Shown in pieces: positions 26,654 to 45,850 of a stretch of 64,000 nucleotides of DNA (its first letter is position 1; every line of letters begins with the position of its first letter). Source of the stretch: Bacteroidota bacterium (lineage in GTDB: Bacteria; Bacteroidota; Bacteroidia; JAFLBG01); the NCBI GenBank assembly GCA_017303975.1, contig JAFLBG010000002.1, positions 62,001 through 126,000 of the forward strand, given 5' to 3'. A model generated the notes under the pieces. It saw only the letters and a program-made list of their open reading frames with translations. It made no database searches and was not told where the DNA came from. Made by a program: the position numbers and the translations under genes.

Positions 26654-26845
26654 TTACCTAATCACACTCACATGTCCCACATAATTGTGGCGTTTGCCAA
26701 AAATGTCTGTTAGTTGTACTTTCCAGACATACACATCCTGTTGAACAGTTTCTAAAATATTATTGACTCTGTCATTCCATGTTTGAGCTGTTTTAGGTAA
26801 ATAAAGATGTATTTTTCGAGTAACAACAAACGGCTTTAAAATCAT
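26654..26845 (-). pseudogene. Orphan 3' remnant of a T9SS type B CTD
   Basis: The frame encodes the last 45 or so residues of a type B sorting domain (from about TWNDRVNNILE to GHVSVIR) with no gene attached. By eye the DNA at 26657-26781 differs from the 3' end of the 1302-residue giant (41846 onwards) at about 11 of 125 positions, while similarity fades upstream of about 26817. It lies directly beyond the stop of the 935-residue type B protein, whose own CTD is intact and of a different lineage. A decayed gene end or a leftover from 3'-end replacement fits best. Confidence 0.75.
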
Positions 26846-26854
26846 TCCATATTC

Positions 26855-29662
26855 TTAGCGTAACACGGTAACATATCCAACTTTGGCTTGTTTATTCTCT
26901 TTAGCGTTGTCTGTAGTTATGATTTTATAAACAAAAACTTCGCTTTCAGCCATACCTCCATTGTATTGCCCGTCCCATCGTTCGCTTAACGATGTCAACG
27001 TTTTTATATTTTCTCCCCACCTGTTATAAATTTCACACTTAAGTTCTTTCATGCACGTATACTCTACACCCCATGTATCATTTACACCATCACCATTCGG
27101 AGTAAAGCAGTTAGGAATATATAGTGTACTAATAAAATCTTCCTTAACTTCTATTTGCTTTTGTGTGGTATCGAGACACCCTAAACCACTTTCTACAATA
27201 AGTGTTAAACTATAGGAACCAATCGATGGTAAGCTAAGTGTTAAATTACGGTCGAATGAAATTGGTTCTGCATTTAAATACCACTTATTAAAATATTCGT
27301 TTATTGAATGGTTTATTACAAGCGAAGAGAAACTACACAGCGAATCTATTACTATTATATCAAAATCAGCAATGGGTTTTGTCATAGGTGATATTGTTTG
27401 AGAATATGTATTGACACAGTTATTGGTATCTGTTCCAATAACTGTAACTAGAGTCGAAGAATCTATTTGTAATTGGAATACATTCCCAGAAAATACATTA
27501 TTGGGTGTAATCCAACTATAAGAACTTGCACCAACTCCATTAATAGTAGCATAACTCCCTTGGCATACATTCAGCGCTTGAAATGAAACAACTGGAAGTT
27601 GATTTACCAAAATAGTTTTAACCGCTGTTGCTGTGCATCCATTACTATCGGTTGCAAGCAAGGAGTAGGTGGTTGTTGAAGCGGGCATACTACTTACAAC
27701 ATTTGAAGTAGAACCATTAAACCATGTTATATTATAATTGCCGGATACACTCATGCTTATTGTGCCTCCAATACATATTTCGTGTACAGAAATAATAAAC
27801 GGTGTAGGCAATGGATTTACAACAACAGATGCTGTAGTATCAGAAATGCAGCCATTTGAGTCTGTTCCTGTTAGCGTATAAGTAGTAGAAATAGATGGAG
27901 CAACTAAAATAACAGAAGATGAAGCACCATTAGACCAACTGTAGGCTAGAGCTCCAGCAGCTGTTAAGGTCGCTGTATTGCCATTACAAATGGCAACAGA
28001 ATTAATCAAGAGAATAGGTAAAGGGTTTACTACAATATCAATACTATCAGAATTACTGCAGCCAAATTGATTGGTAACTGTAGAAGAGTAAATTCCAGAT
28101 GTGCTTACAACTATGGCACCTAACGTATCTCCTGTAGACCACCAATAGCTACTTGTAGGGGATTGAACATTAATAACAACTGTATTCCCATTACAAAAAC
28201 TTGTATCATTTCCAAGATTTACAATGGGTTTTGGATTTACGTTTACTTGAAGTGTGTCATATAAGGTATCGCACGGCAAGTATATAGACAAAACATACAG
28301 AGTGCTTGCATTTGGGCTTGCTTTAGGATTAGCAATAGCACTATTACTTAAACCACTTGTAGGCGACCAAGAATAGGTATTATTGGACGATGCTGTTGCT
28401 ACACCAATTGAAATGGAGTCCCCCGCACAAATAGAAGTATCACTTATCGTGTAATTATAATTTATAGCGGAAACAAAAAAACGATTGTATGTATTAGGCA
28501 ACCCTAACTTACTTTGTTTACCTGCTAACGCAATAGCATTAACAAATAGCCCAGGAGATAAATAATTATTGGGAGAAGACAACTCAGATATTGTGCCTGA
28601 ATTACGCTCTGCTATATATAATTTCCCATTTGAGGCTTCCTGTATTAAACCAGGCTGAAATGGTAAAACAACAGAATTAATTGATGTAGCAATGTTTGTA
28701 GCAAACCTATCAAAGCCGTGCAAAGTATATGTTCCAGTATACTGAGTAAAATAAATTTTAGAATCATCGGGAGAAAAGGAAGCACCATAACAAGAAACAT
28801 TCGGTAATAATACTCGCATATTAGAAGCAGCACCTGTTTGATTATTAAAATCTACAATGTGAGCACCACGATAGCTAGCACATGGAAGTGTGCCTGCGTT
28901 TGCTATAAGAATACTTTTCCCATCTTTTGATGCTGATATTGCACCATTTCCAGGAGCACAACCAACACCAAAGCCACTTACCACTGGCGTACAACTTACT
29001 TGACATGAAACATGAAATGCATAAATATTGCTTGTGGGTTGATGTTGCGTAATTATCCAATAATCATGGCCATTTGAGTGTATAGCAGCAGTAACTTTTT
29101 CATCTACCGAATCGAGCAATTGAATTTTATTTGAACCAGAAATATAATTACACTGAGTAGATAAAAAACTGGTGTCAATATCTCCAAACCCACCATTTAA
29201 ATTCATATTTACTACTGTGTAATACAATCCATCCCACTTGCCTTGTGGACCTACATTAGGAAAGGAACTAGCTCCATCTGTGGTAAATACAAAATACTTA
29301 TTAGTGTCGCCAATAAAAGGAGTTATTAATGCAGACTGGGTAGAACTCTCATCTCCTGAAAGCATTTTATTCCAAGATGTTCCGTCTGCAAGAGACATTT
29401 TCGTATGATTTTTATTCCAAATAATTCGACCGTCAGTATAAAACAAAAGTTGACCAACAGAATTAGAAATAGAAGCACAGCCCTCATCAGTTGCCATTTG
29501 GCTGTTTACTAATGGTATAGGAAAACCACTATTGAAATCAAGTCCAGCATTCTGCCCAAAATACCAAACATTAGACTTATTGCTATTTTGGGCTCGTGCA
29601 AAACAGAATACTAGTATATATAGTATAATAAGAAGGGGAAGTTTAATAGACCTTATAATCAT
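26855..29662 (-). CDS. Large secreted protein, beta-propeller plus Ig-like repeats, T9SS type B CTD
   Basis: This 935-residue protein has a signal peptide (1-25), an N-terminal propeller-like region (about 30-400) starting SNVWYFGQNAGLDFNSG, a phrase common in gliding-associated proteins, then about five Ig-like/PKD-type repeats (400-760) with recurring SWSNG and TYTLTGTDSNGC motifs, one more PKD-like module, and a type B CTD (about 850-935) with PNCFTPNGDGVNDTWG and IYNRWGE. Its end, KVGYVTVLR, differs from the neighbouring CTD groups. It is expected on the cell surface, as an adhesin or matrix protein. It is the leftmost intact type B gene of the island. Confidence 0.88.
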   Translation of the reverse strand: MIIRSIKLPLLIILYILVFCFARAQNSNKSNVWYFGQNAGLDFNSGFPIPLVNSQMATDEGCASISNSVGQLLFYTDGRIIWNKNHTKMSLADGTSWNKMLSGDESSTQSALITPFIGDTNKYFVFTTDGASSFPNVGPQGKWDGLYYTVVNMNLNGGFGDIDTSFLSTQCNYISGSNKIQLLDSVDEKVTAAIHSNGHDYWIITQHQPTSNIYAFHVSCQVSCTPVVSGFGVGCAPGNGAISASKDGKSILIANAGTLPCASYRGAHIVDFNNQTGAASNMRVLLPNVSCYGASFSPDDSKIYFTQYTGTYTLHGFDRFATNIATSINSVVLPFQPGLIQEASNGKLYIAERNSGTISELSSPNNYLSPGLFVNAIALAGKQSKLGLPNTYNRFFVSAINYNYTISDTSICAGDSISIGVATASSNNTYSWSPTSGLSNSAIANPKASPNASTLYVLSIYLPCDTLYDTLQVNVNPKPIVNLGNDTSFCNGNTVVINVQSPTSSYWWSTGDTLGAIVVSTSGIYSSTVTNQFGCSNSDSIDIVVNPLPILLINSVAICNGNTATLTAAGALAYSWSNGASSSVILVAPSISTTYTLTGTDSNGCISDTTASVVVNPLPTPFIISVHEICIGGTISMSVSGNYNITWFNGSTSNVVSSMPASTTTYSLLATDSNGCTATAVKTILVNQLPVVSFQALNVCQGSYATINGVGASSYSWITPNNVFSGNVFQLQIDSSTLVTVIGTDTNNCVNTYSQTISPMTKPIADFDIIVIDSLCSFSSLVINHSINEYFNKWYLNAEPISFDRNLTLSLPSIGSYSLTLIVESGLGCLDTTQKQIEVKEDFISTLYIPNCFTPNGDGVNDTWGVEYTCMKELKCEIYNRWGENIKTLTSLSERWDGQYNGGMAESEVFVYKIITTDNAKENKQAKVGYVTVLR

Positions 29663-31507: not shown

Positions 31508-33418
31508 TTATTGTTTAATTATTTTCTTCACTTCTTTATTCCCATTCGCAATAACTTCTATAAAATACATTCCTACTGGTAGTTCAGAGATGTTCACGTT
31601 TGTTTCTGTCTCGGTAAGTGCAATTGTTCTTATGGCAACTCCACTGTAGTTATAAATTGTAGCTGTAGTATTCTCTGTGCTCTCTACCTTAATTGTTACA
31701 AAATCGGTAGCAGGATTTGGATATACCGATACGTTCATTGAACTTTCTTCCAAACCTGTTTTATAGGCTACACTGTTGCTCTCTTCTGCTTGTTCTTCGG
31801 GTGATAAGGCACTGCCACTAAAAGAATATTTAATCATGGCAGGACGATACATTTCAAATGTTATGTTCGGATTTATCAAATTATTGGCTCCCGAATAAAG
31901 TAGGTTAAACGATCCGTGAAGTTCTATTGATACGAAAAGACTATTTTTATATGTAAGAATTTGCGCATTTTTATACATCAAATCTCCTGAGTAAGCATTT
32001 GCGTTATAAATAGGATTATTCCATTTAGTTACACCATTAGACGTACTGTATTTTATTAGATGTGGAATGGTTTTATTGCTGGCATATAATTCCGAATATA
32101 AAAGTATTGGATCTCCATCTGTATCTACTTCTAAATCGTTATTTGTTAAATAATCAGAAGTTGCATTATGCGATCTGCTCCAAATATAGGAGCCTGCTGG
32201 GCCGTATTTTGCAATGTATACTTTATTAGATACTATCTTATTGGTTGCTACAACATCTGGGTTTATATCGATTGGTGAATTTGTATAAGCACTTACAAAT
32301 ATATTACCAAGCTTATCAACTTCTACTTTTGCTGTTTCAAACAAATTATTGGTTACACCACCATCAATAGCTTTGGCCCAAACAAAATTTCCAATGCTAG
32401 TATATTTAGCAATACAAATATCTTCTAAACCATCACTTCCTTGCGTTGTAACATTTGAAACAGAATTAGATGGATCAAAGTCTATATAAGAGTTTGAACT
32501 TGCAGAACCTTTTGAAAAAATCCCACCTACTATAATGTTTGAGTATTTATCTAAATGAATAGAATTTAAACCAAGTTGATTTCCTTTTGCCTCAATTTTT
32601 CGAGCAAATAAAAATTGTAACGAGGAACTAAATTTCAATAGTACAGCATCATTACTTTTTACTTTTACAACACCAGAAGTTCCATTTGCAAAGTTTATAT
32701 TGTGTGAGCCATTACCTTCAATGTATCCTATATTTAATATCGCAAATAAATTACCGTATTTATCCGATTTAATATCGCTTAGATGTGCTTCACTTGGCAT
32801 AGTATTAAGAGGAAGATCTAACGTTTTGGCTATTGTACCATTTTCATTGAGCTTTAAAACATATAAGTTGGAGCGATTATATATTGATGAAAACTGTTTA
32901 CTTTCATACTTAAATTTTCCGGTATAAAGTCCAGCTACATACATTCCTTTCGAGTTACCAATATTGCAAATTGCATTTGCTTCTACAGCAGAATTATTAC
33001 CATTTATAACATACTTTTTCGACCAAAGGTATTTTCCTGCTGAGTTACTTGCGTATGAAGCCAAAAAGGGGGTACCCAAACTATAAGGTATTGAGCCCTC
33101 TTCCATAAAGTCGAAATCTACACCAGCTATATTAGGTTTGTCGAGACTAGGATTAATCAATGCTTTTGAGACATCCGGATTCACATCAATTGCATCTTTT
33201 GCGTATCCAATTCGTATCCACTGATTTGATACTGAATCGATAGCAGATTCACCCCAATACATGCTGACATGAGGTTGTGGTGCGTATCCATTATCGGATG
33301 CAACTTGAAATTGAAATGAATTTTTCCAATCTACAGTAGCTTGAGCATTTACATTTTGTTTAGTGTTTGCTGCCAATAGCAATGCTAGCGCAGCTAGTTT
33401 AATTGTTTGCTTTTTCAT
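31508..33418 (-). CDS. Type A array paralogue 1: SBBP/propeller-like secreted protein with T9SS type A CTD
   Basis: This 636-residue protein begins MKKQTIKLAALALLLAANTK, a signal peptide nearly identical in its two neighbours. The body (30-545) is a beta-propeller of SBBP-like repeats, each of the form (I/V)AKY...G...WA(K)... followed by D..GN(I/L)(F/Y)V. The type A CTD (about 555-636) has VYPNPATDFVTIKVES and ends EVKKIIKQ. The CTD is mosaic: its first half is identical in DNA to paralogue 3 (31638-31772) but its second half has diverged (AIRTIALTETETNVNISELPVG). The function of the propeller is unknown; surface attachment by T9SS is likely. Confidence 0.85.
   Translation of the reverse strand: MKKQTIKLAALALLLAANTKQNVNAQATVDWKNSFQFQVASDNGYAPQPHVSMYWGESAIDSVSNQWIRIGYAKDAIDVNPDVSKALINPSLDKPNIAGVDFDFMEEGSIPYSLGTPFLASYASNSAGKYLWSKKYVINGNNSAVEANAICNIGNSKGMYVAGLYTGKFKYESKQFSSIYNRSNLYVLKLNENGTIAKTLDLPLNTMPSEAHLSDIKSDKYGNLFAILNIGYIEGNGSHNINFANGTSGVVKVKSNDAVLLKFSSSLQFLFARKIEAKGNQLGLNSIHLDKYSNIIVGGIFSKGSASSNSYIDFDPSNSVSNVTTQGSDGLEDICIAKYTSIGNFVWAKAIDGGVTNNLFETAKVEVDKLGNIFVSAYTNSPIDINPDVVATNKIVSNKVYIAKYGPAGSYIWSRSHNATSDYLTNNDLEVDTDGDPILLYSELYASNKTIPHLIKYSTSNGVTKWNNPIYNANAYSGDLMYKNAQILTYKNSLFVSIELHGSFNLLYSGANNLINPNITFEMYRPAMIKYSFSGSALSPEEQAEESNSVAYKTGLEESSMNVSVYPNPATDFVTIKVESTENTTATIYNYSGVAIRTIALTETETNVNISELPVGMYFIEVIANGNKEVKKIIKQ
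31638..31772 (-). repeat. 135-bp CTD block identical to 35688-35822
   Basis: These 135 bases in the CTD of paralogue 1 are identical to 35688-35822 in paralogue 3 (offset 4050). The paralogue 2 counterpart differs over part of the block. Neighbouring coding sequence on both sides is diverged, as expected from a short gene-conversion tract. Confidence 0.8.
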
Positions 33419-33754
33419 GGTTTTGGTTTAAGTTTATAGTTGTTATAGCAAATTTTCATAAAGGCATAATTAGTATTCCAGTTCACCGGTTTATTAATGT
33501 TTTAACCTAACCCTAACTAACAAACCAGCAAACTGGCAAACTAATATTACTTATTGTTTAATTACTTTCTTTACTTCTTTATTCCCGTTCGACACCACCT
33601 CTACAAAGTACATTCCTGCTGGCAGTTCAGATATATTCACTTTTGTCTCTGTTTCGGCAAGAGCAATAGTTTTTACTGCTACTCCACTGTAGTTATAAAT
33701 TGTAGCTGTAGTATTCTCTGTGCTCTCTACCTTAATTGTTACAAAATCGGTAGC
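33356..33754 (-). repeat. 399-bp direct repeat, copy 1 (spans the paralogue 1/2 junction)
   Basis: This copy covers the signal-peptide codons of paralogue 1, all 132 intergenic bases and the last 200 bases (CTD) of paralogue 2. It is identical, as far as I can read, to 35363-35761, with a period of 2007 bases. Sequence on both sides diverges at once. Confidence 0.85.
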
Positions 33755-35425
33755 CGGATTAGGATAGATAGCCACATTGGTAGTAGCTTCTTCTACTACT
33801 GTTTTGTACGCTATGCTGTTGTTTTCTTCTGTTTGGTCTTCAGGTGATAGGGCGGAACCGGATAGAGTATATTTTATCATCACATCTTTATAATCTGTAA
33901 ATTGAGCTGCGGCAACACCAAATTGATTGTTAGAGAGAATTGCAGCTTCTTTATAATGCACTCCAACTGTCATTGCAGATAGTAAATAGAAACTATTTTT
34001 GTTTGCTAAAGCAGTAAGACCAAACATCCAAGTATCTTGATTTAAAGATCCAACTGTTGGAGATATTCTATTTTTCCAAATTTGTGCAAATGAGTTAGTA
34101 GTGCTATTAGTTTTGAGTTTAAACATATACAAGCTATTATCAAAAAACACTGTATAATAGATATTTCTCCTTGAGTCTATTGTAAAATCAAATTCGCCAG
34201 AAGTGCCAACAAGTAATGGCTTTTGTTCTTGATACATTCCTAGATAAGCACCTTGTTTATTATATTTTGCAACATACATAATAAGCATATTGGTTGCATT
34301 ATTAATACTAGTAGTGCCGTTATACTGAAAATACTCTCCTTGCTCAAGCAAACCTGCTATATAAATATTACCCATATTATCGACTTTCATTTTTGTTTTA
34401 TTAAACATGTACATAGGTTCGGTTTCAGAGTGTTTCAGTATGTTTGACCAGCTATAATTCATATTAGCAGAATATTTTATGAGAATTACAGATTGATTAT
34501 GCAATTCATAATTAACAGCTGGTAAACTTTGCATACCACTTTGTTTACTATCTAAATCAACAGTAAATGTGCCCCCGTCTTGAGAAGCCGATGCTTTTAG
34601 TATAATGTTTTTACTAGCATCAAAGCTCACATCCTGTATATGAAGACTCAAACTATTTGATACAATCTTATTGTGATTTAAATAATTTAAATTTTTATCG
34701 TATTTAACCATAAAAACTTCACCATCTAATGCTGTAACACTTTTTACTCCTGCTCCCGGATCTAAATCTAATTTGCACGATTCTGCTTCAAACACTACTA
34801 GCAGGTTCCCATTAGGATCAACGGCTATTTGGGAAGAATATATACGAGATTGATTTGTAACATTACCAATAGGCTTAATAACAGCAGATTTTAATAGAAT
34901 GCCTTTCTCATCTATTTTCATTAGTAAAATATCATCAGGATTACTTGAATGTAACGTGGGATTAAACGTACCATTAAATACTTTGGTTCCATAGGAAATT
35001 TTTCCCGAAAAACTAGCACTTACATATAACCCCTTTTGAGCGCCAATAGCTTCTATATCCTCAATGATAGGTGTTCCCCATTGATTGAACCCTTTTAGCT
35101 CATTCGCCCACTTGTATTTACCAGAGTTAGCATCGTAAGCAGCAATTGTATAGCCTTCTCTAATAGCTTTGCCGGCAGATGGGTCAACATCAAAATTTAT
35201 GATTGTAAAACTCTCATCGTACTCATCGCTACTATATCTGTAAATTTGATTACTTAGCGTATCAAGTACACCATTTGAAGCAACCCGCTCTTCTTCATTT
35301 TGAGTATAGGGAGTTGCATCAAATACATTTCTCCAAGCTACCGTAGCCTGTGCGTTTACATGTTGTTTAGTGTTTGCTGCCAATAGCAATGCTAGCGCAG
35401 CTAGTTTAATTGTTTGCTTTTTCAT
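33551..35425 (-). CDS. Type A array paralogue 2: SBBP/propeller-like secreted protein with T9SS type A CTD
   Basis: This 624-residue protein has the shared signal peptide MKKQTIKLAALALLLAANTK, a propeller body that is homologous to but clearly diverged from its neighbours (for example KYDKNLNYLNHNKIVSN, AKYNKQGAYLGMY), and a type A CTD from about 545. The CTD second half (VKTIALAETETKVNISELPAG, ending VKKVIKQ) is identical to that of paralogue 3, while the stretch before YPNPATD (VVEEATTNVAI) is its own. It is separated by 132 bases from each neighbour. Both intergenic regions are identical, so all three genes may share transcription and a downstream terminator. Confidence 0.85.
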   Translation of the reverse strand: MKKQTIKLAALALLLAANTKQHVNAQATVAWRNVFDATPYTQNEEERVASNGVLDTLSNQIYRYSSDEYDESFTIINFDVDPSAGKAIREGYTIAAYDANSGKYKWANELKGFNQWGTPIIEDIEAIGAQKGLYVSASFSGKISYGTKVFNGTFNPTLHSSNPDDILLMKIDEKGILLKSAVIKPIGNVTNQSRIYSSQIAVDPNGNLLVVFEAESCKLDLDPGAGVKSVTALDGEVFMVKYDKNLNYLNHNKIVSNSLSLHIQDVSFDASKNIILKASASQDGGTFTVDLDSKQSGMQSLPAVNYELHNQSVILIKYSANMNYSWSNILKHSETEPMYMFNKTKMKVDNMGNIYIAGLLEQGEYFQYNGTTSINNATNMLIMYVAKYNKQGAYLGMYQEQKPLLVGTSGEFDFTIDSRRNIYYTVFFDNSLYMFKLKTNSTTNSFAQIWKNRISPTVGSLNQDTWMFGLTALANKNSFYLLSAMTVGVHYKEAAILSNNQFGVAAAQFTDYKDVMIKYTLSGSALSPEDQTEENNSIAYKTVVEEATTNVAIYPNPATDFVTIKVESTENTTATIYNYSGVAVKTIALAETETKVNISELPAGMYFVEVVSNGNKEVKKVIKQ

Positions 35426-35761
35426 GGTTTTGGTTTAAGTTTATAGTTGTTATAGCAAATTTTCATAAAGGCATAATTAGTATTCCAGTTCACCGGTTTA
35501 TTAATGTTTTAACCTAACCCTAACTAACAAACCAGCAAACTGGCAAACTAATATTACTTATTGTTTAATTACTTTCTTTACTTCTTTATTCCCGTTCGAC
35601 ACCACCTCTACAAAGTACATTCCTGCTGGCAGTTCAGATATATTCACTTTTGTCTCTGTTTCGGCAAGAGCAATAGTTTTTACTGCTACTCCACTGTAGT
35701 TATAAATTGTAGCTGTAGTATTCTCTGTGCTCTCTACCTTAATTGTTACAAAATCGGTAGC
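35363..35761 (-). repeat. 399-bp direct repeat, copy 2 (spans the paralogue 2/3 junction)
   Basis: This copy covers the signal-peptide codons of paralogue 2, the 132-base intergenic region and the last 200 bases of paralogue 3. It is identical to 33356-33754. A third, partial match occurs at the start of paralogue 3 (around 37400-37455), where the coding part has several differences and the upstream part diverges after about 17 bases. Confidence 0.85.
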
Positions 35762-37435
35762 AGGATTTGGATATACCGATACGTTCATTGAACTTTCTTC
35801 CAAACCTGTTTTATAGGCTACATTATTGTTCTCTTCTATTTGCTCTTCTGGAGATAAAGCAGTACCACTTAAAGTGTACTTTATTACTACATCAGCAGCT
35901 CCTTTTGCTACAGAAAATTTAGACAATGGGTTATTAACTAAATCTTTGTACGTATTTAATGAATGCCCATCACCTAGATTAGCAAATAGATACACCTCAT
36001 TTTTATTTGCAATAATAGTTGGAAAAGATTGAATTGGCTTTGATGGATTAACATTAAAAATGCTGTTTTTCCAAATCCTGGTAATTGAGTTTCCTGCCGT
36101 ATTCAACTTCGACATATAAAGTCCATCATTCACTATGCAAGACAAATAGGCATTATTTTTTGAGTCTATAAAAAAACTTAATTCATCCACGGAACTTTCT
36201 GGACCCTTTATACCATATTTTGTTTCGGAATAAACTGTTTTTAAAGTACCTAATTTATCGTATTTAGCTACAAATAATTTCAGACTATCTTTCACTGGTC
36301 CGTGTAGAGTTTTAGTAGCCGACAAATCTATACTAGTGTTAAATCCTCCCCATGACTGATCACCTAAAATACCTGAAACAAATATATTACCTTGCTTATC
36401 AACATTTGTTCTAAGAAAAAAATCTTGTGTCAACGATAAATTAACTGTTCGTGTAAATGAATTAGTCCATAACAATTGCATACTAGGAGAGTATTTCGCA
36501 ATGTATCTTCCCGGTAGTCCGTTTAGCTTTTGTGCACCAGATTGTTTCGCATCAAAATCTACGCTAGTTTGACTTTGATTGAATCCATGACCAAAATCAA
36601 CTCCCGAAATAATAAAATTTTTGCTTCCATCAAAAAATATTCCATCAACAGAAAACTCTTCGCCATATGAAACTATTTTATTACTATTAATAAATTTCAA
36701 ATTTGAATCGTACTTAACAATTCCAACATCATTTGGCCCTAAAATCACTTGCTTAGTAGAAGAAAGTGGATCTATTAAATAACCATTTACTGCAGAAGTA
36801 TAATTTGTGAACACAATTGCTAACGATCCGTTTACATCAACAGCTGCAGTAGACATAGCAAAACTTCCAGGATACATCACATCTGGTTTCAGGAATAATG
36901 ATTTTATCAATGTTCCATTTTCATTAATCTTTAACACAAAAAGGTCGTCCACATCAATACCCTCAGTAATTGCACTAGGAGTATTTGTAGAAGTAAATGA
37001 AGTGTTTTGATATTTTATCTTGCCAGAAAAGCTTCCAATTATATATAAACCTTTCTGCTTCCCTATTGGAACTATCTTAACAATAGATATGCCCCCATAT
37101 TTACTTACCAAGGTTAAATTATTCACCCAATCAAGAGCGCCAGTATTAGATGAGTATGCAGCAACAACAGCACCACTTTTCATTACTTTTCCTACACCTG
37201 GATCAAAATCTTTCAAAGTTTTCTCATCAAATCCAAATCTGTAAATTTTATTAGACAACGTATCGATAACAGCCTCAGATGAGGATTGATAATCGTTAAC
37301 ACCCTCAAAATAAGTGAATGGACTATTATTCAATTGAGTTCGCCACGCAACAGATGCTTGCGCATTAATTTCATTTTTTGCTGAAGCCGCTAGTAGCAAT
37401 GCTAGTGCAGCCAATTTAATTGTTTGCTTTTTCAT
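35558..37435 (-). CDS. Type A array paralogue 3: SBBP/propeller-like secreted protein with T9SS type A CTD
   Basis: This 625-residue protein is the promoter-proximal member of the array. Its signal peptide has drifted (MKKQTIKLAALALLLAASAK), the body shares the propeller pattern (VAKYDKLGTLKTVYSE, AKYSPSMQLLWTNSF) with many substitutions relative to paralogues 1 and 2, and the CTD from about 545 combines the first half of paralogue 1 (GLEESSMNVSVYPNP) with the second half of paralogue 2. It is thus the sequence that links both mosaics, either as donor or as a recombination product. Upstream lies a 323-base gap that must hold the array promoter. Confidence 0.85.
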   Translation of the reverse strand: MKKQTIKLAALALLLAASAKNEINAQASVAWRTQLNNSPFTYFEGVNDYQSSSEAVIDTLSNKIYRFGFDEKTLKDFDPGVGKVMKSGAVVAAYSSNTGALDWVNNLTLVSKYGGISIVKIVPIGKQKGLYIIGSFSGKIKYQNTSFTSTNTPSAITEGIDVDDLFVLKINENGTLIKSLFLKPDVMYPGSFAMSTAAVDVNGSLAIVFTNYTSAVNGYLIDPLSSTKQVILGPNDVGIVKYDSNLKFINSNKIVSYGEEFSVDGIFFDGSKNFIISGVDFGHGFNQSQTSVDFDAKQSGAQKLNGLPGRYIAKYSPSMQLLWTNSFTRTVNLSLTQDFFLRTNVDKQGNIFVSGILGDQSWGGFNTSIDLSATKTLHGPVKDSLKLFVAKYDKLGTLKTVYSETKYGIKGPESSVDELSFFIDSKNNAYLSCIVNDGLYMSKLNTAGNSITRIWKNSIFNVNPSKPIQSFPTIIANKNEVYLFANLGDGHSLNTYKDLVNNPLSKFSVAKGAADVVIKYTLSGTALSPEEQIEENNNVAYKTGLEESSMNVSVYPNPATDFVTIKVESTENTTATIYNYSGVAVKTIALAETETKVNISELPAGMYFVEVVSNGNKEVKKVIKQ

Positions 37436-37758: not shown

Positions 37759-40104
37759 CTACCTAATGACACTTACGTGTCCTATATAGTTATGGTGTTT
37801 ACCAAAAATGTCTGTTAGTTGTACTTTCCATACATACACATCTTCTTGCACATTTTCTAATACATTATTTACTCTACCATTCCACGGAACCGCTGTTTCG
37901 GGAGAATTGGTTTTGTGTGTAGTATAGATCATTTGCCCCCAACGATCGTATATCCATAACTGGTATTCGGCTATACCTATTCCTGCTCCATTTAACAAAT
38001 CATTAATTCCATCGCTATTTGGAGTGAAAGAATTGGGAACATAAAAACCAAAATCTTCTGTGATTGTTAAACATTGCTCGGTTGTATCTTTACAAGTATG
38101 TGCATTTTCTACTACCAATAGCACACAAATCCTACCTGTATCATCAAACGTTTTAAACATATTCCAACTAACACTATCTGGCCCCTCCCCTTCAATACTC
38201 CACTTCCACTTACTTGCATCGGTAGATGTATTTTTAATTTCTACTATAGGGTTGGTTATAGATACTACGCTGGATGATAGGCTAAAGTCTGCATTAGGAG
38301 AATTGTACACAGTAATTTGATTGGGAATAACTGATGTTGATTGACACCCATTTATATCCTTTACAGATACAGTTGTACTATAAACTCCTGGTTCTGTATA
38401 ACAATGCATGGGAGTATATAATGTACTAGTGCCACCATCTCCAAAACTCCAAAAGGTATTTATTAGATTTTGAGTAGATGTACTTATGCTAAAAGTACTG
38501 CATAACAAGGGACAACCAGATGATACATCACTAGTATAGGTTACAACCGGTAGTGCATTTACTGTTATACTTTGCAATGCTGATGCAATACAACCATTTG
38601 CATCTGTTACTTCTAGGGTTACTATTTGAGTACTATCAGGGGCTATTGTAATTACAGAATTAGTACAAGCTCCATTATTCCAGTTATAAGAAAATGGGGC
38701 TGTTCCTCCTGTTGCACTTGAACCTATTACAATACTATCTCCTGCACATAAACTACTTGCGCCTGAAGTTGTTGCTATTAATACCAGCGGCTCTGATACC
38801 GTAAAGCTATCTACATCAAAACAACCCACTTGGTCAGTTACGGTAACTGAATAAACTCCATATTGCAAAAAAAACAATGAATCGTTCTCTTCGCTTGTCC
38901 CTAACCAAGAATAATCTATGACACCTGTTCCTCCTTGAGTTGAAGCCCATACCATTCCATCACTTCCACCATAGCAACTTACACTTTTTCCTGATATTGT
39001 TAATTGTGGCCCAGGAGTGTTGGTTATGGTATATACAGAAATTAGTTTACACAAAGCACTATCACTTACCTCTACCGCATATGTTCCAGATGACATACCC
39101 GTTTGGTTAGATCCAATTGCATTTGTAGACCAACTGTAATGATAATTGCCTACACCTCCGGTTGCAGATAAACTAATTGCGCCATCTGCTCTATTACAAA
39201 ATGTGGAAGTAACAGTTGATGTAATAGCTATTACAGGTGGTTGTGCTATTGCTACCGAATCAACAAATAGTGCACCAACAGAATCGGTTACTGTTACGTA
39301 ATATTTTCCTGCGCATAAGTTTGATATACTATCAGTTGTTTGTCCTCCGGGTTGCCATAAATAACTATAGGGTGCAACTCCTCCATACATCTTTATTTGT
39401 GCTGTTCCATCGCAACTTGAATTACAGGTTACATCGGTTTTCTTAATCTCTTTTTCTGATACGATGCAACTCATATTGTCAATCCCACAATATGTCCACC
39501 CAAGATAAGGATTGTAACTAGAAGAATTGCAAATTGCTTTTGGATTAATTACTTGACCATTATACCCCATGGTTAAATAACACCATGTTTGGGTAGGGGT
39601 AAACTTAAATTCAACACTCTTCCAACTTGTATTATTAATAATTGTGTCAAAAAGAAGTTCTGCCTGATGATTACAATTATTCCCCCCCCAAATGGCAAAC
39701 TTTGGAAACATACACGTATCCGCATTTTGCTGATAATAAAAAAGTAAGACTAGGTCGATAGTAAATTTATACTCTACACCTGCCTTCAAACACCCAGGAA
39801 CTGGCTGACAAACCCTTTCCCACCAACTTCCAGAATAATCGCCAGTTAGACCTTGAAATGTATTTCCTAATGATGCCGGCATAGTTATTCCCCAATGGCC
39901 AGGCAAAATATCTGGAGTAGCTCCATTAGCAGTATGCCACCCTGGAGCTGGACTATGCATTGTGGGAACTCCCTCAAAATCACTATTTGTTAAACATATT
40001 TTTTGAGCACATAGATTAGAAATGTTTAAATGATAAAACAAGATGAAAATTATTACTCGAGAACCTATTCTAGAAATCAATAATTGACTTTTAAATTTAT
40101 ACAT
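37759..40104 (-). CDS. Secreted jelly-roll/SprB-repeat/PKD protein with T9SS type B CTD
   Basis: This 781-residue protein has a signal region (about 12-34), then a cysteine-rich jelly-roll-like domain (35-215) starting KICLTNSDFEG and ending WTYCGIDNMSC, similar to carbohydrate-binding modules. Three to four SprB repeats follow (about 220-520, e.g. DVTCNSSCDGTAQIKMYGG), then a PKD domain with FWSFGDGGTS, and a type B CTD (about 690-781) with PNSFTPNSDGINDL and IYDRWGQ. The end, DIFGKHHNYIGHVSVIR, groups with the 1302-residue giant and the orphan remnant. It is divergent from the first helical-protein gene, sharing a 231-base promoter region. Confidence 0.88.
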   Translation of the reverse strand: MYKFKSQLLISRIGSRVIIFILFYHLNISNLCAQKICLTNSDFEGVPTMHSPAPGWHTANGATPDILPGHWGITMPASLGNTFQGLTGDYSGSWWERVCQPVPGCLKAGVEYKFTIDLVLLFYYQQNADTCMFPKFAIWGGNNCNHQAELLFDTIINNTSWKSVEFKFTPTQTWCYLTMGYNGQVINPKAICNSSSYNPYLGWTYCGIDNMSCIVSEKEIKKTDVTCNSSCDGTAQIKMYGGVAPYSYLWQPGGQTTDSISNLCAGKYYVTVTDSVGALFVDSVAIAQPPVIAITSTVTSTFCNRADGAISLSATGGVGNYHYSWSTNAIGSNQTGMSSGTYAVEVSDSALCKLISVYTITNTPGPQLTISGKSVSCYGGSDGMVWASTQGGTGVIDYSWLGTSEENDSLFFLQYGVYSVTVTDQVGCFDVDSFTVSEPLVLIATTSGASSLCAGDSIVIGSSATGGTAPFSYNWNNGACTNSVITIAPDSTQIVTLEVTDANGCIASALQSITVNALPVVTYTSDVSSGCPLLCSTFSISTSTQNLINTFWSFGDGGTSTLYTPMHCYTEPGVYSTTVSVKDINGCQSTSVIPNQITVYNSPNADFSLSSSVVSITNPIVEIKNTSTDASKWKWSIEGEGPDSVSWNMFKTFDDTGRICVLLVVENAHTCKDTTEQCLTITEDFGFYVPNSFTPNSDGINDLLNGAGIGIAEYQLWIYDRWGQMIYTTHKTNSPETAVPWNGRVNNVLENVQEDVYVWKVQLTDIFGKHHNYIGHVSVIR

Positions 40105-40335: not shown

Positions 40336-41850
40336 ATGGCAAACATAAACAATGACTTATTTGAATTAATAAAATCTCTTACTAATGCAGAGATTAAACA
40401 ATTCTATTTTTTTTGTAAAAATCAGGGGCATAAAGAGGAAAAACAGTATTTAGTTTTGTTTGAAGAGCTTAGAAAAGCAAGTTTTTATGATGAAGAACAT
40501 ACAAAAGAAAAACTAAAAAAAGTAATTAAAAATTATGCTGTTTTAAAAAACTACCTATTTGACCTCATCATCAAAAGCTTTATGCTTGATTTTACCAGTA
40601 GCAATCCAATATTTGAGTTAAACAAATCTTTAGTAGAAATAGAAATATTAAGAGGCAAAGGGCTTTTAAAAAGAAGTAATCATTTAATAGAATTGACAAA
40701 AAAGAAAGCACATGAGTGCGAAGAATATCAGATTGTGATTCAACTTATAGACCAGCAACTGAAAAATATATTTTTCAAAGGGCAGTTTAATAAAACAACA
40801 TATTCTAAATTAATTGAAGAAAGAAGAACAGCAAATGACTTTTTATTTAGAAAAAACAAATTACATATACTCGTAAATGATTTGATTTTCTTAGAAAACA
40901 CTACATCATTCATTGCCCCTAATTTCACAAAAAGAATAAATGAAATAAAAGAAGAATTACTAGCACTCCTAAATCAGCAGCCTAACCCTGTTTTTGTTGA
41001 TATCATTTGCCTAGAAAACCTCTCCTTGATAGAGGCAAGAACAGAAGCTTTTGAAGAAGCAATAAAACACATAAGTGAATTACAAAAGAAATTCAAACAA
41101 CTTTCAGAAAAGCTTTTTTTATTTAAACAGTTTCATTACAAATACTTCAACTCTATTTTGAATAAATTTTTTTATGAAATTCGCCTCAAAAAAATAGAGC
41201 AAGCTACAGTCTCCATCCATGAATTGGAGTCTACTGGTAGTTATTACAATAATAAACCCGAAAGCAATGCCATTTTATCTGACTTAACATTTGCAAAATG
41301 CTTTTACATGCTTTCTACTGGGAAATTTAATACGTACGAACTAAATGAATTTGACTCGCTAAATACCCCTAATAAAGTTTCTGCATCAATGCAACAAAAC
41401 AGATCGTTTTTAATATATGCAACTTTATTATTATTCAAAAAAGAACTCAAAAAACTAACGCGTATTTTTTTTCAAATTGAAACAAGTGATACTCAAGTTT
41501 TCTCTGGTCAATTTTCAGGTGGCACATTATTGATATACGCTACTCTACAATTTGAAAAAGGGGATTACGAAGAGTTACTCAGATTAAAAAAACTAGCATT
41601 AAAAAACACAATCACTAATGAGCAAAGTGTACTCTACTGGATTGATAGTTTATTACAGCTCCTAAATGAGGGAATAAACGCTCTACCTATCAAACTAATG
41701 CAATTATCTCAAGCGATTAATAGCAATAACAACAAGACTTTATTGTCACAATATTTTTTAACGGACTGGCTTGAAAGCAAAATTCAGAACAGACCTATTG
41801 AGGAAATATTATCACAAAAAATATTAAAAGATAAAAACAGCTCTACCTAA
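40336..41850 (+). CDS. Uncharacterised helical cytoplasmic protein, paralogue 1
   Basis: This 504-residue protein lacks a signal peptide and membrane segments and is almost all alpha-helical, with a spacing that suggests TPR-like or HAT-like repeats. The N-terminus has DLFELIKSLTNAEIKQFYFF, then YLVLFEELRK, then IKNYAVLKNYLFDLIIKSF. This pattern recurs in the second + strand gene of the island and, as I recall, in uncharacterised Bacteroidota proteins; no function is known to me. It is one of two genes facing the other way in a 37-kb block of - strand secreted-protein genes. The last 8 bases overlap the 3' end of the 1302-residue giant. A regulatory or chaperone-like role for surface proteins is speculative. 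Confidence 0.75.
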   Translation: MANINNDLFELIKSLTNAEIKQFYFFCKNQGHKEEKQYLVLFEELRKASFYDEEHTKEKLKKVIKNYAVLKNYLFDLIIKSFMLDFTSSNPIFELNKSLVEIEILRGKGLLKRSNHLIELTKKKAHECEEYQIVIQLIDQQLKNIFFKGQFNKTTYSKLIEERRTANDFLFRKNKLHILVNDLIFLENTTSFIAPNFTKRINEIKEELLALLNQQPNPVFVDIICLENLSLIEARTEAFEEAIKHISELQKKFKQLSEKLFLFKQFHYKYFNSILNKFFYEIRLKKIEQATVSIHELESTGSYYNNKPESNAILSDLTFAKCFYMLSTGKFNTYELNEFDSLNTPNKVSASMQQNRSFLIYATLLLFKKELKKLTRIFFQIETSDTQVFSGQFSGGTLLIYATLQFEKGDYEELLRLKKLALKNTITNEQSVLYWIDSLLQLLNEGINALPIKLMQLSQAINSNNNKTLLSQYFLTDWLESKIQNRPIEEILSQKILKDKNSST

Positions 41851-44800
41851 TCACACTTACATGTCCAACGTAGTTATGGTGTTTACCAAAAATGTCTGTT
41901 AGTTGTACTTTCCAGACATACACATCCTGTTGTACTATTTCTAAAATATTATTGACTCTGCCATTCCATGGAACGGCCGTTTCCGGTGAATATGTTTTGT
42001 GTGTGGTATAAAGCATCTGTCCCCAACGATTGTAAATCCATAACTGGTATTCGGCTATGCCAATTCCCCAACCATTGAACAAATCATTAATTCCATCGCT
42101 ATTCGGAGTGAATGAGTTTGGAATATAAAACGCAAAATTAGGATTAACAGTTATACATTGAGAAGTGCTATCAATGCAACCTTTCTGGGATATTGCAATC
42201 AATTTGGTACAAAAGTAGCCTGTATCGGGATAGCTGTACGAAGGATTAACAATTGTACTTGTTGATTGAGAATTATCGCCAAAATTCCACAGGTACGATA
42301 CCGCATTGGTACTTTCGTTGGAATAATTAACATTTGCATTTAACACATCTGTGCTATACGATGATGGCGTAAATGCCGCTTGTGGTAATCCATACACAGT
42401 TATAGAGTTAGTGCTGCTGATGTTATTTGAACAACCATTGTTATCTATCACCGTAACTGAATACGAGTAGCTGCCCGAATTGGCAAAGCATTGTGTAGCA
42501 TTGCTCATAGTGCTTTGCGAGCCATCGCTAAAATACCATTGTACTTGTTGAGTATTATCTGTAGTGTTGGCAAGCTTTACACACAAAGGTGCGCAGCCTG
42601 CTGTATCTTGTGCTGTATAACTTACCTGCGGCAAAGCATGCCAAGTGAGCGTACTGGAATAACTGGCAGTACAATTCCTACTATCTGTTACTGTTACTTG
42701 ATATGCTGTAGTTGTATTTACTAGCGTAGAAACGGTATTGGTAATAGAACTAAATGGTGTCCACTGGTAAGCAAAGCCACCATTGCCTCCTGTTGGTACA
42801 GCCGTTAAATTGCTTGTTCGTCCGGCACAAGCAGCGCTATCACCTGTTGTTGTTATAATTAATGCGGGTGGCTCTGTAATACTTATTGTTGCAGTATTTG
42901 TACAACCATTGCCATCTGCTACGGTTACGCTATACGTATTAGCGCTAACATTAGAAAGTGTGTTTGTAGTTTCTCCGTTACTCCAATTGTAAGAATAGGG
43001 GGCAAATGTATTTTGTCCTGCCACAGCAGCACTTCCATCACTCAGCGAATTACACGATACGGGAACAATAGTTGTTGTAGCAATACTTGGTAGCGCATTT
43101 ACAGTAAGTGTGTAGGGTAATGTATAAGGACAGCCTTGTGTGGTGTTGCCGCTTACTGTATACGTAACACTAGTGGGAGGATTGGCAATAACTGTTGTAC
43201 TTGTGGCAGTATTTAAATTACTCGCAGGACTCCAGTTGGCAGTACTTACACCCTTAACTTCTAGTATTGATAGGCTTCCTGTACAAAGTACACTATCTCC
43301 ACTAATAGTAACATTATTATTCGGAATGGAAACGGTTACACTTTTGAAAACACTGTCGGTATTGCAAACAGAGCTAATAATTAGCTTAACTTGATAGGTG
43401 CCACTACTACTGTAGCTTACCTGTGGGTTAAAAGAAGTAGACGAACTTGGCGTGCCTCCTTGAAAACTCCATACAAAATTAGTACCACTCGGATCGCAGT
43501 AATGGTGTGGCGTATAGTTCACTTGCACCGAACACCCTTGCGGAACCACTGTGGTATCAAAGGTTACATCGCTGTACGTATCGTCACCACAGTTTAAGGC
43601 GCAAATTCGGCCAATAACCAAATCTTCAAAGCCGCCAGCATGTGTGGGTTGAAAGGAGTTTGCTGTTGTAGGATAACCACCTTGACCTGCATTTACAAAA
43701 TAAATAAATCCGTTCTTTACTTTAATATCGCCACGCACATCTCCGTTATCCCAGTCATCTTCATCCGGACCACCTAAGTAAGTAGAGCATAAATAATCGC
43801 CTGTAAGTCCATCAAATTTTGCTATGTAATGATCTTCTATGCCTCCAAATGTATTCTGATAACCACAAGAGCTAGTAGTTATACTGGCTTCAAAATCTTC
43901 GTACTCGCCAAATATATAGGGATTGCCGTTAGCATCAAGAGTTAAAAATGGGAAAAGTTCTCTATCAGATGTTCCAAACGCTGTGGACCACAGAATAGAG
44001 CCATTAGCATTTAACTTAACTAAATACAAGTCTGTCCCTCCTTGAAAAGGATTATTAGTTGGAGGGGAACACGTATAAGCGCCATCTGCAGTTGTTGAAA
44101 CGACTATATCATTTGAGGCATTACACTGAACATCGGGAAAGTTTCCTGGTATCATAGTAGACCAAACAATATTTCCGATAGCATCCATCTTTACACAAAA
44201 ACTTTCGAAAACGTTTGTACTGCAACCAAATGGATTGATGGTTGTTGGATATAATCCTAATGGTTGTCCTACTAATACAATATTATTCAATGCATCTGCT
44301 GCTACTGCCTTTGATTCAGAACCCACAACAGCACTATAAAAATTTGCAAATACAATATTTCCCAACTTGTCGAATTTAGAAACGAATGCATTCCCTTTGG
44401 TATTTCCGGGATTTATGCTTTGAGTTGAAGATATGGGTAAACTATCCATAGCTGTACCACAAAAAACAATGTTATCATTTTGATCGATGGCAAGATCAGA
44501 AGAATAACCATCAATGTATGCCATAGCTCCTTGCCCTGAAATAAAAGCACGATAATAAGAGCTCCAATTAAGAATACCGGCAGAGTTTAATTGAAATAAA
44601 AAATAACAAAATACACCCATAGGATTAGAGCTTTGAAAAGCTCCTAAAGTGACAGGTAAGTTTAGAGAATTCGTAATGCCAAGTATAGATAGATTGTTTT
44701 GACTGTCGTGAGCAATTGCTTTTGACACTTCAAACTTGCTACCCCCAAAGTAGGTTGCCCAATTTCTACTACCTGTATTTGAAAAACTTGCAACCACAAT

Positions 44801-45751
44801 CTCTTTTGTACCGGAACTAGAGTTGTTTACCACTTGAAAGGCTCCAACAGAAACTGGGAAACCGTTAGAGAATGTAGTTCCTGAGGTAATTAAATTATTC
44901 AAGTTATCAGCAGTAATTGTATTTGCGTAATCCATTCCACTGCCGCCCATAAATGTTATCCAGGCGCTACTAGGGTCTATTACTAACGAATAATTTTTAT
45001 TGTATGCCCCCACAGAAAAAGAAAGAAAAAAAGATTGCTCCTTCGATTCGTCTTTTTTTACTATATACTGCATAGCTACATCCTGTATAGTTCCATCAAT
45101 AGTTTGATACACTTTGGGCATCCACTCTTCTATCGTGCCTACCGATGTTTCGATATACAGCCTACCATTTACTTCTTTTATGTTATCGACACCTGTATAG
45201 TTTAGTTGTATGTCATTTACTTCTCCACCCGGATTTACAACCATGTCATATTTAATTCCATTCGCTTTGTTTCCATACGCTACAAAATCAATGTTGTTGT
45301 AAATGTTTTCGTAGGTTACTTTATTAAAGCCCTTTACATGCGTTATTCCTGTTGGGCAGTGCGCATAGTAATAATTAGTATAGCCTTCTACTTCTTGTTC
45401 TTTTCTTGTTTGAAAGGCGTTGTTAGCTCCTACAAAATTAACATCTACCCTGCAACCGTTTATTGGTCTGGTATCTGGACCAGCACCTAATTTTTCTTCT
45501 TCGCTAGCAAATGTGCGCACTAAATTTTCTAACAGTACATAGCTAATTCCCGTTTGACGCAAGTACACTTTGTTGCCACCTCCATCACCTACAAACAATA
45601 CATCGGGACGCAGGTTTTGGTTCATATCCACTACCTGTCCCTTGTTCTCAATAAAGTTCATGCCATTTCCTCGCAAGGCAGTAGATGTTTCAGAAGTATT
45701 TCCTACGCAATAATTGCAAATAAAAAAAAGAAGAAGATATCTGAACTGCAT
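41843..45751 (-). CDS. Giant secreted SBBP/PKD/SprB-repeat protein with T9SS type B CTD
   Basis: The ATG at 45751 gives 1302 residues (an upstream TTG is possible). After the signal peptide comes a domain starting FIENKGQVVD (about 35-265), the DUF7948-type N-terminus found with SBBP beta-propellers. SBBP repeats follow (270-720: GSGMDYANTITAD, WATYFGGSKFEVSKAIA), then a PKD domain with FVWSFQGGTPS, Ig-like and two SprB-type repeats (SVTVADGNGC, QVTVTDSRNC), two more PKD domains (YFSDGS, YLWNFGDNS) and the CTD (about 1210-1302) ending DIFGKHHNYVGHVSVIR. It should be a long surface adhesin. It overlaps tail-to-tail with helical paralogue 1 by 8 bases. Confidence 0.9.
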   Translation of the reverse strand: MQFRYLLLFFICNYCVGNTSETSTALRGNGMNFIENKGQVVDMNQNLRPDVLFVGDGGGNKVYLRQTGISYVLLENLVRTFASEEEKLGAGPDTRPINGCRVDVNFVGANNAFQTRKEQEVEGYTNYYYAHCPTGITHVKGFNKVTYENIYNNIDFVAYGNKANGIKYDMVVNPGGEVNDIQLNYTGVDNIKEVNGRLYIETSVGTIEEWMPKVYQTIDGTIQDVAMQYIVKKDESKEQSFFLSFSVGAYNKNYSLVIDPSSAWITFMGGSGMDYANTITADNLNNLITSGTTFSNGFPVSVGAFQVVNNSSSGTKEIVVASFSNTGSRNWATYFGGSKFEVSKAIAHDSQNNLSILGITNSLNLPVTLGAFQSSNPMGVFCYFLFQLNSAGILNWSSYYRAFISGQGAMAYIDGYSSDLAIDQNDNIVFCGTAMDSLPISSTQSINPGNTKGNAFVSKFDKLGNIVFANFYSAVVGSESKAVAADALNNIVLVGQPLGLYPTTINPFGCSTNVFESFCVKMDAIGNIVWSTMIPGNFPDVQCNASNDIVVSTTADGAYTCSPPTNNPFQGGTDLYLVKLNANGSILWSTAFGTSDRELFPFLTLDANGNPYIFGEYEDFEASITTSSCGYQNTFGGIEDHYIAKFDGLTGDYLCSTYLGGPDEDDWDNGDVRGDIKVKNGFIYFVNAGQGGYPTTANSFQPTHAGGFEDLVIGRICALNCGDDTYSDVTFDTTVVPQGCSVQVNYTPHHYCDPSGTNFVWSFQGGTPSSSTSFNPQVSYSSSGTYQVKLIISSVCNTDSVFKSVTVSIPNNNVTISGDSVLCTGSLSILEVKGVSTANWSPASNLNTATSTTVIANPPTSVTYTVSGNTTQGCPYTLPYTLTVNALPSIATTTIVPVSCNSLSDGSAAVAGQNTFAPYSYNWSNGETTNTLSNVSANTYSVTVADGNGCTNTATISITEPPALIITTTGDSAACAGRTSNLTAVPTGGNGGFAYQWTPFSSITNTVSTLVNTTTAYQVTVTDSRNCTASYSSTLTWHALPQVSYTAQDTAGCAPLCVKLANTTDNTQQVQWYFSDGSQSTMSNATQCFANSGSYSYSVTVIDNNGCSNNISSTNSITVYGLPQAAFTPSSYSTDVLNANVNYSNESTNAVSYLWNFGDNSQSTSTIVNPSYSYPDTGYFCTKLIAISQKGCIDSTSQCITVNPNFAFYIPNSFTPNSDGINDLFNGWGIGIAEYQLWIYNRWGQMLYTTHKTYSPETAVPWNGRVNNILEIVQQDVYVWKVQLTDIFGKHHNYVGHVSVIR

Positions 45752-45850
45752 AGTTGTCAAAATAGCTTAGAAAAGAAATTATACCAATTTAATTTTTGTA
45801 TTAAATATGCTATTCTTACAGTTAAAATAAACACAAAACAATGATAATGA

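Follow-up and report, generated by a model that had tools for sequence, protein, structure and literature searches.

A 64,000-nt stretch of a Bacteroidota bacterium draft genome (GCA_017303975.1; 3.43 Mb in 70 contigs), corresponding to contig C2:62001-126000 and here called the window, harbors three adjacent paralogous genes, g1, g2 and g3 (paralogues 1, 2 and 3). Their C-terminal sorting domains (CTDs), which address the products to the type IX secretion system (T9SS), are much more alike than the proteins they are attached to, and the way in which these ends came to be shared among neighbors is the subject of this analysis. The genes are read on the minus strand in the order g3, g2, g1 and show a common layout: a basic start with a hydrophobic stretch, a passenger (cargo) of ~490 residues, and a T9SS type A sorting domain.

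31508..33418, minus strand: g1 (paralogue 1), 636 aa, beta-propeller T9SS type A cargo, third in transcription order; TIGR04183 at 565-636, 51.4 bits
33551..35425, minus strand: g2 (paralogue 2), 624 aa; TIGR04183 at 553-624, 55.7 bits
35558..37435, minus strand: g3 (paralogue 3), 625 aa; TIGR04183 at 554-625, 55.6 bits; its sorting domain is shared both with g1 and with g2

With a curated cut-off of 23 bits for TIGR04183, and PF18962 scores of 52.1 (g1), 56.7 (g2) and 56.6 bits (g3) at a cut-off of 27 bits, both matching up to the last C-terminal residues, the three products are classified as T9SS cargoes with a type A sorting domain, and export and sortase cleavage are predicted. Inspection of the N-termini points to a putative signal peptide in which a basic start precedes hydrophobic residues that end in ...NAQA, compatible with a helix at residues 7-18 of the structural model. 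This AlphaFold2 model of g3, based on a 14-member family alignment (mean predicted local distance difference test score, pLDDT, 75.5), is all-beta except for the helix of the signal and a second, short one. The top Foldseek matches are CylK structures (TM-score ~0.44), with several beta-propellers also listed. Within the trio, PF06739 (SBBP) is above its cut-off in g2 alone (21.7 vs 20.5); g1 reaches 59 bits against NF047494, far under the cut-off of 400. The promoter motif TANNTTTG is uninformative, with 19 matches in L047 vs 22 expected.

Mosaic structure of the sorting domains

The ends of the three genes are composed of tracts with different nearest partners:

31638..31772, minus strand: tract E1, g1 copy; 135 nt identical to g3, with 22 consecutive variable sites at which g1 equals g3
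35688..35822, minus strand: tract E1, g3 copy; 135/135 bases equal to the g1 copy, a maximal exact match
33356..33754, minus strand: tract E2 at the g2/g1 junction; 204 nt of the g2 end, 132 nt of intergenic DNA and 63 nt of the g1 start
35363..35761, minus strand: tract E2 at the g3/g2 junction; g3 end, intergenic DNA and g2 start, a 399-nt maximal exact match with the other copy
35688..35761 (also 31638-31711 and 33681-33754), minus strand: block of 74 nt identical in g1, g2 and g3, inside which the partner of g3 switches from g1 to g2

A sequence-only reading of this DNA had noted 135 identical bases between paralogues 1 and 3 in the first half of the CTD, and a second half shared, together with the downstream region, by paralogues 2 and 3. 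Both statements hold exactly, and the second extends to the entire intergenic regions of the two junctions (132 bp each, identical at 132/132 positions), so that g2 is flanked by two identical 399-bp direct repeats. The peptides quoted there likewise recur as described, with GLEESSMNVSVYPNP at the start in g1 and g3 against VVEEATTNVAIYPNP in g2, and VKTIALAETETKVNISELPAG at the end in g2 and g3 against IRTIALTETETNVNISELPVG in g1. Since the g2/g3 tract runs through the spacer into the next signal peptide, it is the repeat junctions that are converted, not the domain alone.

In the final 330 nt of the three genes, 72 sites are variable. A mixed zone reaches as far as -266, followed by 22 successive sites with g1=g3 (-265 to -205), an invariant stretch (-204 to -131), and 24 successive sites with g2=g3 (-130 to -15); neither run was matched when the order of the sites was shuffled 20,000 times (0/20,000 each). 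Silent-site distance is not uniform along the CTDs either: with silent sites alone, the two runs still comprise 6 (p=0.0096) and 14 sites (0/20,000 shuffles). On the codon scale of g3, whose sorting domain spans 554-625 (TIGR04183), the change of partner falls at codons 559-583, just within the domain; the g1/g3 tract has its left edge at codon 538, in a linker modeled with low confidence (pLDDT <50 at 535-560). A GENECONV-style permutation test across 15 sorting domains, the kind of recombination test proposed along with the sequence-only reading, gave 0/1000 globally for each of the pairs g3/g2, g3/g1 and g2/g1.

Silent sites are homogeneous inside these tracts and near-saturated outside. 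The trio's passengers are 22-35% identical, and their codon identity at sites with the same residue is 0.47-0.60; the sorting domains are 81-90% identical with a codon identity of 0.70-0.91. A scenario free of recombination, in which the genes share one history of tandem duplication, the cargo evolves fast under positive selection and the sorting domain is held by purifying selection, could draw on the functional constraint generally acknowledged for T9SS sorting domains. Constraint on the protein does not preserve silent sites, however, and the difference in codon identity just given is one of silent sites. Furthermore, the nearest partner switches within one domain, and the passenger of g1 is sister to that of C6_9, a gene on a different contig (support 100/99). 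As g3 has opposite nearest neighbors on either side of the 74-nt block, silent sites included, one duplication tree is impossible, as the sequence-only reading had argued, and the selection scenario is hardly credible.

Draft assembly offers another way to obtain near-identical repeats, which may be collapsed to one consensus or misjoined; the genome is a 70-contig draft, and 399 bp is longer than usual short reads. On the other side, the 74- and 135-nt blocks fit ordinary read length, and a collapse may hide a few differences but cannot create the zone in which g1 equals g3, where g2 differs at 22 sites. Reasoning from the assembled sequence without reads, the two entrances and two exits of the 399-bp repeat leave g3-g2-g1 as the sole linear path. 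This explanation is taken up again with the other genomes below.

Passengers and sorting domains across the gene family

The passengers belong to a beta-propeller cargo family with at least 14 full-length members genome-wide, the trio included. Two further genes possess the family sorting domain only, C7_31 and C5_139, the latter truncated by a contig end.

Family members besides the trio: C2_46/C2_48, C5_124/C5_128, C6_9/C6_12, C7_14, C7_27, C7_39, C8_45, C37_16

C5_139 and C7_31 were excluded from the passenger, CTD-tree and near/far sets, C37_16 from the tree of CTD DNA and from the GENECONV-style test, and C7_27 from the passenger approximately unbiased (AU) tests and the passenger profile; for C7_14, the start of which is uncertain, the first ATG was taken.

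The 91 pairs of 14 genes were divided into 9 near and 82 far pairs, and the labels were shuffled (n=5000). Codon identity of the CTDs at same-residue sites amounts to 0.75 in near vs 0.56 in far pairs (0/5000 shuffles as high), and residue identity of the signal peptides to 0.65 vs 0.46 (1/5000); residue identity of the passengers is 0.29 vs 0.28 (936/5000). The trees give a corresponding picture. On the passenger tree genomic address is unclustered (10 changes vs a shuffled mean of 9.8), whereas on the CTD tree it is clustered, with 7 changes at a minimum of 6, a value as low in 1/200 shuffles. In AU tests, the passenger data reject the groups {g1,g2,g3} (p=6e-7), {C6_9,C6_12} (p=5e-51) and {C5_124,C5_128} (p=1e-48), and CTD DNA rejects {g1,C6_9} (p=6e-4), {g3,g2,C7_14,C5_124} (p=5e-67) and {C6_12,C5_128,C2_46,C2_48} (p=6e-4), all of these p-values being somewhat too small as the groups were named after the trees had been seen. 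The tests concur with the rejection of a single duplication history. The ends of these genes follow the neighborhood, and the middle follows the lineage.

Dependence on distance

The genome carries about 150 T9SS sorting tags (150 of 281 candidates were scored, and more may exist), of which 125 were examined after exclusion of 25 weak ones. The seven longest exact tracts shared among these 125 domains all belong to pairs on the same contig, at most 16 kb apart. For the 16 sorting domains counted as belonging to the family, pooled codon identity declines from 0.82 at <=5 kb (7 pairs) to 0.66 at 5-20 kb (6 pairs) and 0.58 farther away (107 pairs). Pairs of other genes show 0.465 at <=5 kb (19 pairs) vs 0.447 far apart (5804 pairs). 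A genome-wide neighbor effect was therefore rejected, none being found outside the family among the 125 domains; since non-family pairs lack the effect of distance, the family pattern is no general neighbor bias.

Two side observations concern other sorting domains. Another tandem pair, not of the family, is located at G000:C16:63240-64720 (similar sorting domains with 86% identical residues and a codon identity of 0.69), and a sorting domain with one in-frame stop (TAA), likely a pseudogene, at G000:C3:101659-101877.

Exchange of less than a whole domain is suggested by C7_31 (L050; G000:C7:29460-31883), an 807-aa gene immediately after C7_27 with a different propeller-type passenger. Two-sequence comparisons of this passenger with the family gave best E values of 8e-4 and 0.011, at most a repeat-level similarity. 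The CTD of C7_31 is unlike the family in its first half but resembles C7_27 and C7_14 closely from about -160 onward, up to the end, with a 47-nt exact match to C7_27 in the 3' half. The pairs C7_27/C7_31 and C7_14/C7_31 also gave 0/1000 globally in the GENECONV-style test. The alignment is most simply read as the swap of half a domain, close to where the trio breakpoint lies.

Type B sorting regions in the window

Beside the trio, the window contains sorting regions of type B (CHU_C):

37759..38054, minus strand: type B (CHU_C) sorting region of a 781-aa cargo; 85% DNA identity to 41843-42138
41843..42138, minus strand: type B (CHU_C) sorting region of a 1305-aa cargo; 85% DNA identity to 37759-38054
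26655..26803 (also detected as C2:88655-88779), minus strand: orphan 3' part of a CHU_C region; 149-nt repeat family D4, no open gene

The 781-aa gene (37759-40104; SprB and PKD domains) adjoins the type A trio, and the 1305-aa gene (41843-45760) encodes DUF7948 and PKD domains. Their last 98 codons are 89% identical (codon identity 0.70) and the preceding 170 codons 36% (0.40), with sharp edges and a fall of identity at the stop codon. The proteins align at 43% over 482 residues including the end and have PKD/SprB-type regions in common, and the passengers are hence not wholly unrelated. The orphan is 80% identical to 37760-37908 and 87% to 41844-41992, where the 1305-aa gene ends, 15 kb away. 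It is situated immediately downstream of another CHU_C cargo gene (26855-29662), whose own end differs, and it looks like a displaced remnant.

Between the two type B genes, 40336-41850 (plus strand) encodes a ~500-aa protein without a Pfam match, belonging to a divergent paralogous family with five matches in the genome including itself, one member of which is close to C7_31. Similar genes of ~490 aa were noticed by eye beside members of the beta-propeller family on C5, C6 and C37, and the protein is possibly a linked partner of propeller cargoes.

Tandem clusters in other genomes

When genome contigs were scanned with g3, none of the 48 pattern matches was confirmed as a relative, and 39 other genomes of the class contained none at 1e-20. 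With a passenger profile run on 247 genomes, partial repeat-level matches appeared in 48/246 others and full-length matches in 0/246. As neither a close relative nor an orthologous locus was found among the genomes searched, comparison elsewhere is possible with other families only. For this purpose 13 tandem clusters from five other genomes of the class, picked by eye for closeness among the best-scoring matches listed and hence a non-random set, were used, and cluster L197 was left out of the evaluation.

Among eight tandem pairs with passengers at least 35% identical, the CTD is clearly above the passenger at silent sites in two, both in G056, a genome of a different family and genus. In L188, the passengers are 47% identical (codon identity 0.47) and the CTDs 96% (0.93); in L186, the corresponding values are 40% (0.52) and 88% (0.70). 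The edges in L188 are again sharp, with 15/30 identical bases at -270, 26-30/30 from -240 to the stop codon, and 9/30 right after it. The pattern thus recurs in another genus, and because the G056 genome is one contig, collapse in draft assemblies is no general explanation. Together with the read-length arguments above, this makes an assembly artefact very unlikely for the trio.

Proposed mechanism and its limits

We consider it likely, at a probability of roughly 85%, that the ends of these tandem paralogues have been homogenized by repeated short-tract, homology-dependent gene conversion between neighbors, the cargo being too diverged to pair. At least two events would be required: E1 (135 nt), between g1 and g3, and E2 (399 nt), between the g3/g2 and g2/g1 junctions. 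The copies lie 2-4 kb apart, and strand exchange of the RecA type between them, or template switching, may have brought the events about; the transfer would be non-reciprocal, i.e. conversion proper. Selection would tolerate the copying of a tag, as every copy meets the same type IX translocon and sortase, and would leave the cargo free to vary. Because the ends still pair and the cargo no longer does, each conversion would keep the homology that permits the next. Neighbors would thereby retain the same export tag whatever their cargo, and g1 and g2 would also have the same upstream region. The sorting domains of Porphyromonas gingivalis and Tannerella forsythia are reported not to be interchangeable between the two species, the signal of HBP35 being located in its last 22 residues (PMC11285876). 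This fits the idea that a tag must suit the shared translocon, and hence that selection tolerates copying.

The tree conflict between cargo and CTD is equally predicted if the ends stayed fixed at their address and different cargoes were swapped in, via the conserved ends or by insertion of a whole unit. The position of g2 exactly between 399-bp identical direct repeats is what a single-crossover insertion of such a unit would leave, and the orphan at 26655-26803 resembles a remnant displaced in this way. E1, however, has both edges inside a gene with no cargo between them, for which a local exchange is needed. Moreover, a donor of the trio cargo is absent from the genome, where the closest other match to g3 is 47% identical over the full length, and from the 246 others, none of which has a full-length match; the GC content of the passengers (0.33-0.36) bears no sign of foreign base composition. 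Replacement of the cargo is therefore improbable, if less so than an assembly artefact.

Several observations weigh against conversion between neighbors as the explanation. The E2 repeats flanking g2 are equally expected from insertion of g2 as a unit. Direction and non-reciprocity of the transfer are unreadable without a close relative, and the C6 outgroups leave the polarity of E1 and E2 undecided. Within the family, passenger codon identity is slightly higher in near pairs as well (0.49 vs 0.46; 161/5000 shuffles as high), C5_124/C5_128 are ungrouped on the CTD tree despite similar signal peptides and CTD silent sites, and C2_46/C2_48, which are sisters on the passenger tree as well, share a tract without global significance (0.139). 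Elsewhere, six of the eight tandem pairs show no clear excess of the CTD over the passenger at silent sites, and in L193 (G145:C1:1176200-1181500) the CTDs are 29% and the passengers 54% identical, as if one sorting tag had been replaced. The sequence-only reading's attribution of the mosaic to gene conversion between paralogues is upheld by the mosaic itself and by the tree conflict, with the qualifications that whole junctions are involved and that non-reciprocity is inferred only; the phenomenon also extends beyond what that reading described.

A broader proposal, which we put forward only tentatively and regard as rather doubtful, is that type A and type B sorting domains of Bacteroidota are local recombination units in general. 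Neighbors, in some cases with unrelated cargo, would trade or homogenize whole or half domains, tags would evolve by address, and the ends would serve as handles for new cargo, leaving behind tails such as 26655-26803.

Implications

To our knowledge, the question of how new T9SS cargoes gain and keep a working export tag is rarely addressed. Address-dependent homogenization with divergent cargo would provide a concrete route, namely that tags are copied from neighbors. A bacterial export signal may in this way evolve by location instead of gene lineage. Given address-dependent copying of tags, sorting-domain trees are unusable as proxies for cargo history, and half-domain breakpoints show where natural chimeras stay viable.

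Comparison with known systems

In cassette-based antigenic variation of the pilin/opa type, short tracts are copied between paralogues with conserved ends. In the trio, by contrast, copying affects the conserved ends and leaves out the variable middle, and all three copies are intact genes. Antigenic variation by cassettes was considered for the trio and rejected: the three genes are intact and open, the exchanged parts are their ends, nothing nearly identical to the g3 cargo occurs elsewhere in the genome, and no silent-cassette array was found. Polymorphic contact-dependent inhibition (CDI) and Rhs systems harbor displaced terminal modules downstream of an intact gene. The orphan at 26655-26803 is placed similarly but corresponds to a conserved sorting domain rather than a variable tip, and no CDI/Rhs function is implied.

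Gene conversion between paralogues is itself known. Conversion limited to secretion tag and spacer, and going by address instead of cargo lineage, appears to be a variant without a match in the open-access literature searched, in which no paper on conversion of T9SS sorting domains was found; subscription journals and preprints lie outside this coverage. In the concerted evolution of prokaryotic paralogues, e.g. tufA/tufB, ongoing conversion within the genome homogenizes silent as well as replacement sites (PMC6053082). The trio resembles this case, except that homogenization is limited to the ends and the intergenic region and does not include the cargo. Recombination and gene conversion have also been invoked for domain rearrangement and allelic exchange among surface proteins of P. 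gingivalis, a T9SS bacterium; some of these proteins have a C-terminal domain that is conserved, the variable parts and alleles are exchanged, and antigenic variation is proposed (PMC5266723). In the trio, it is the sorting domain and spacer that are exchanged, with breakpoints inside the domain and an effect of genomic address.

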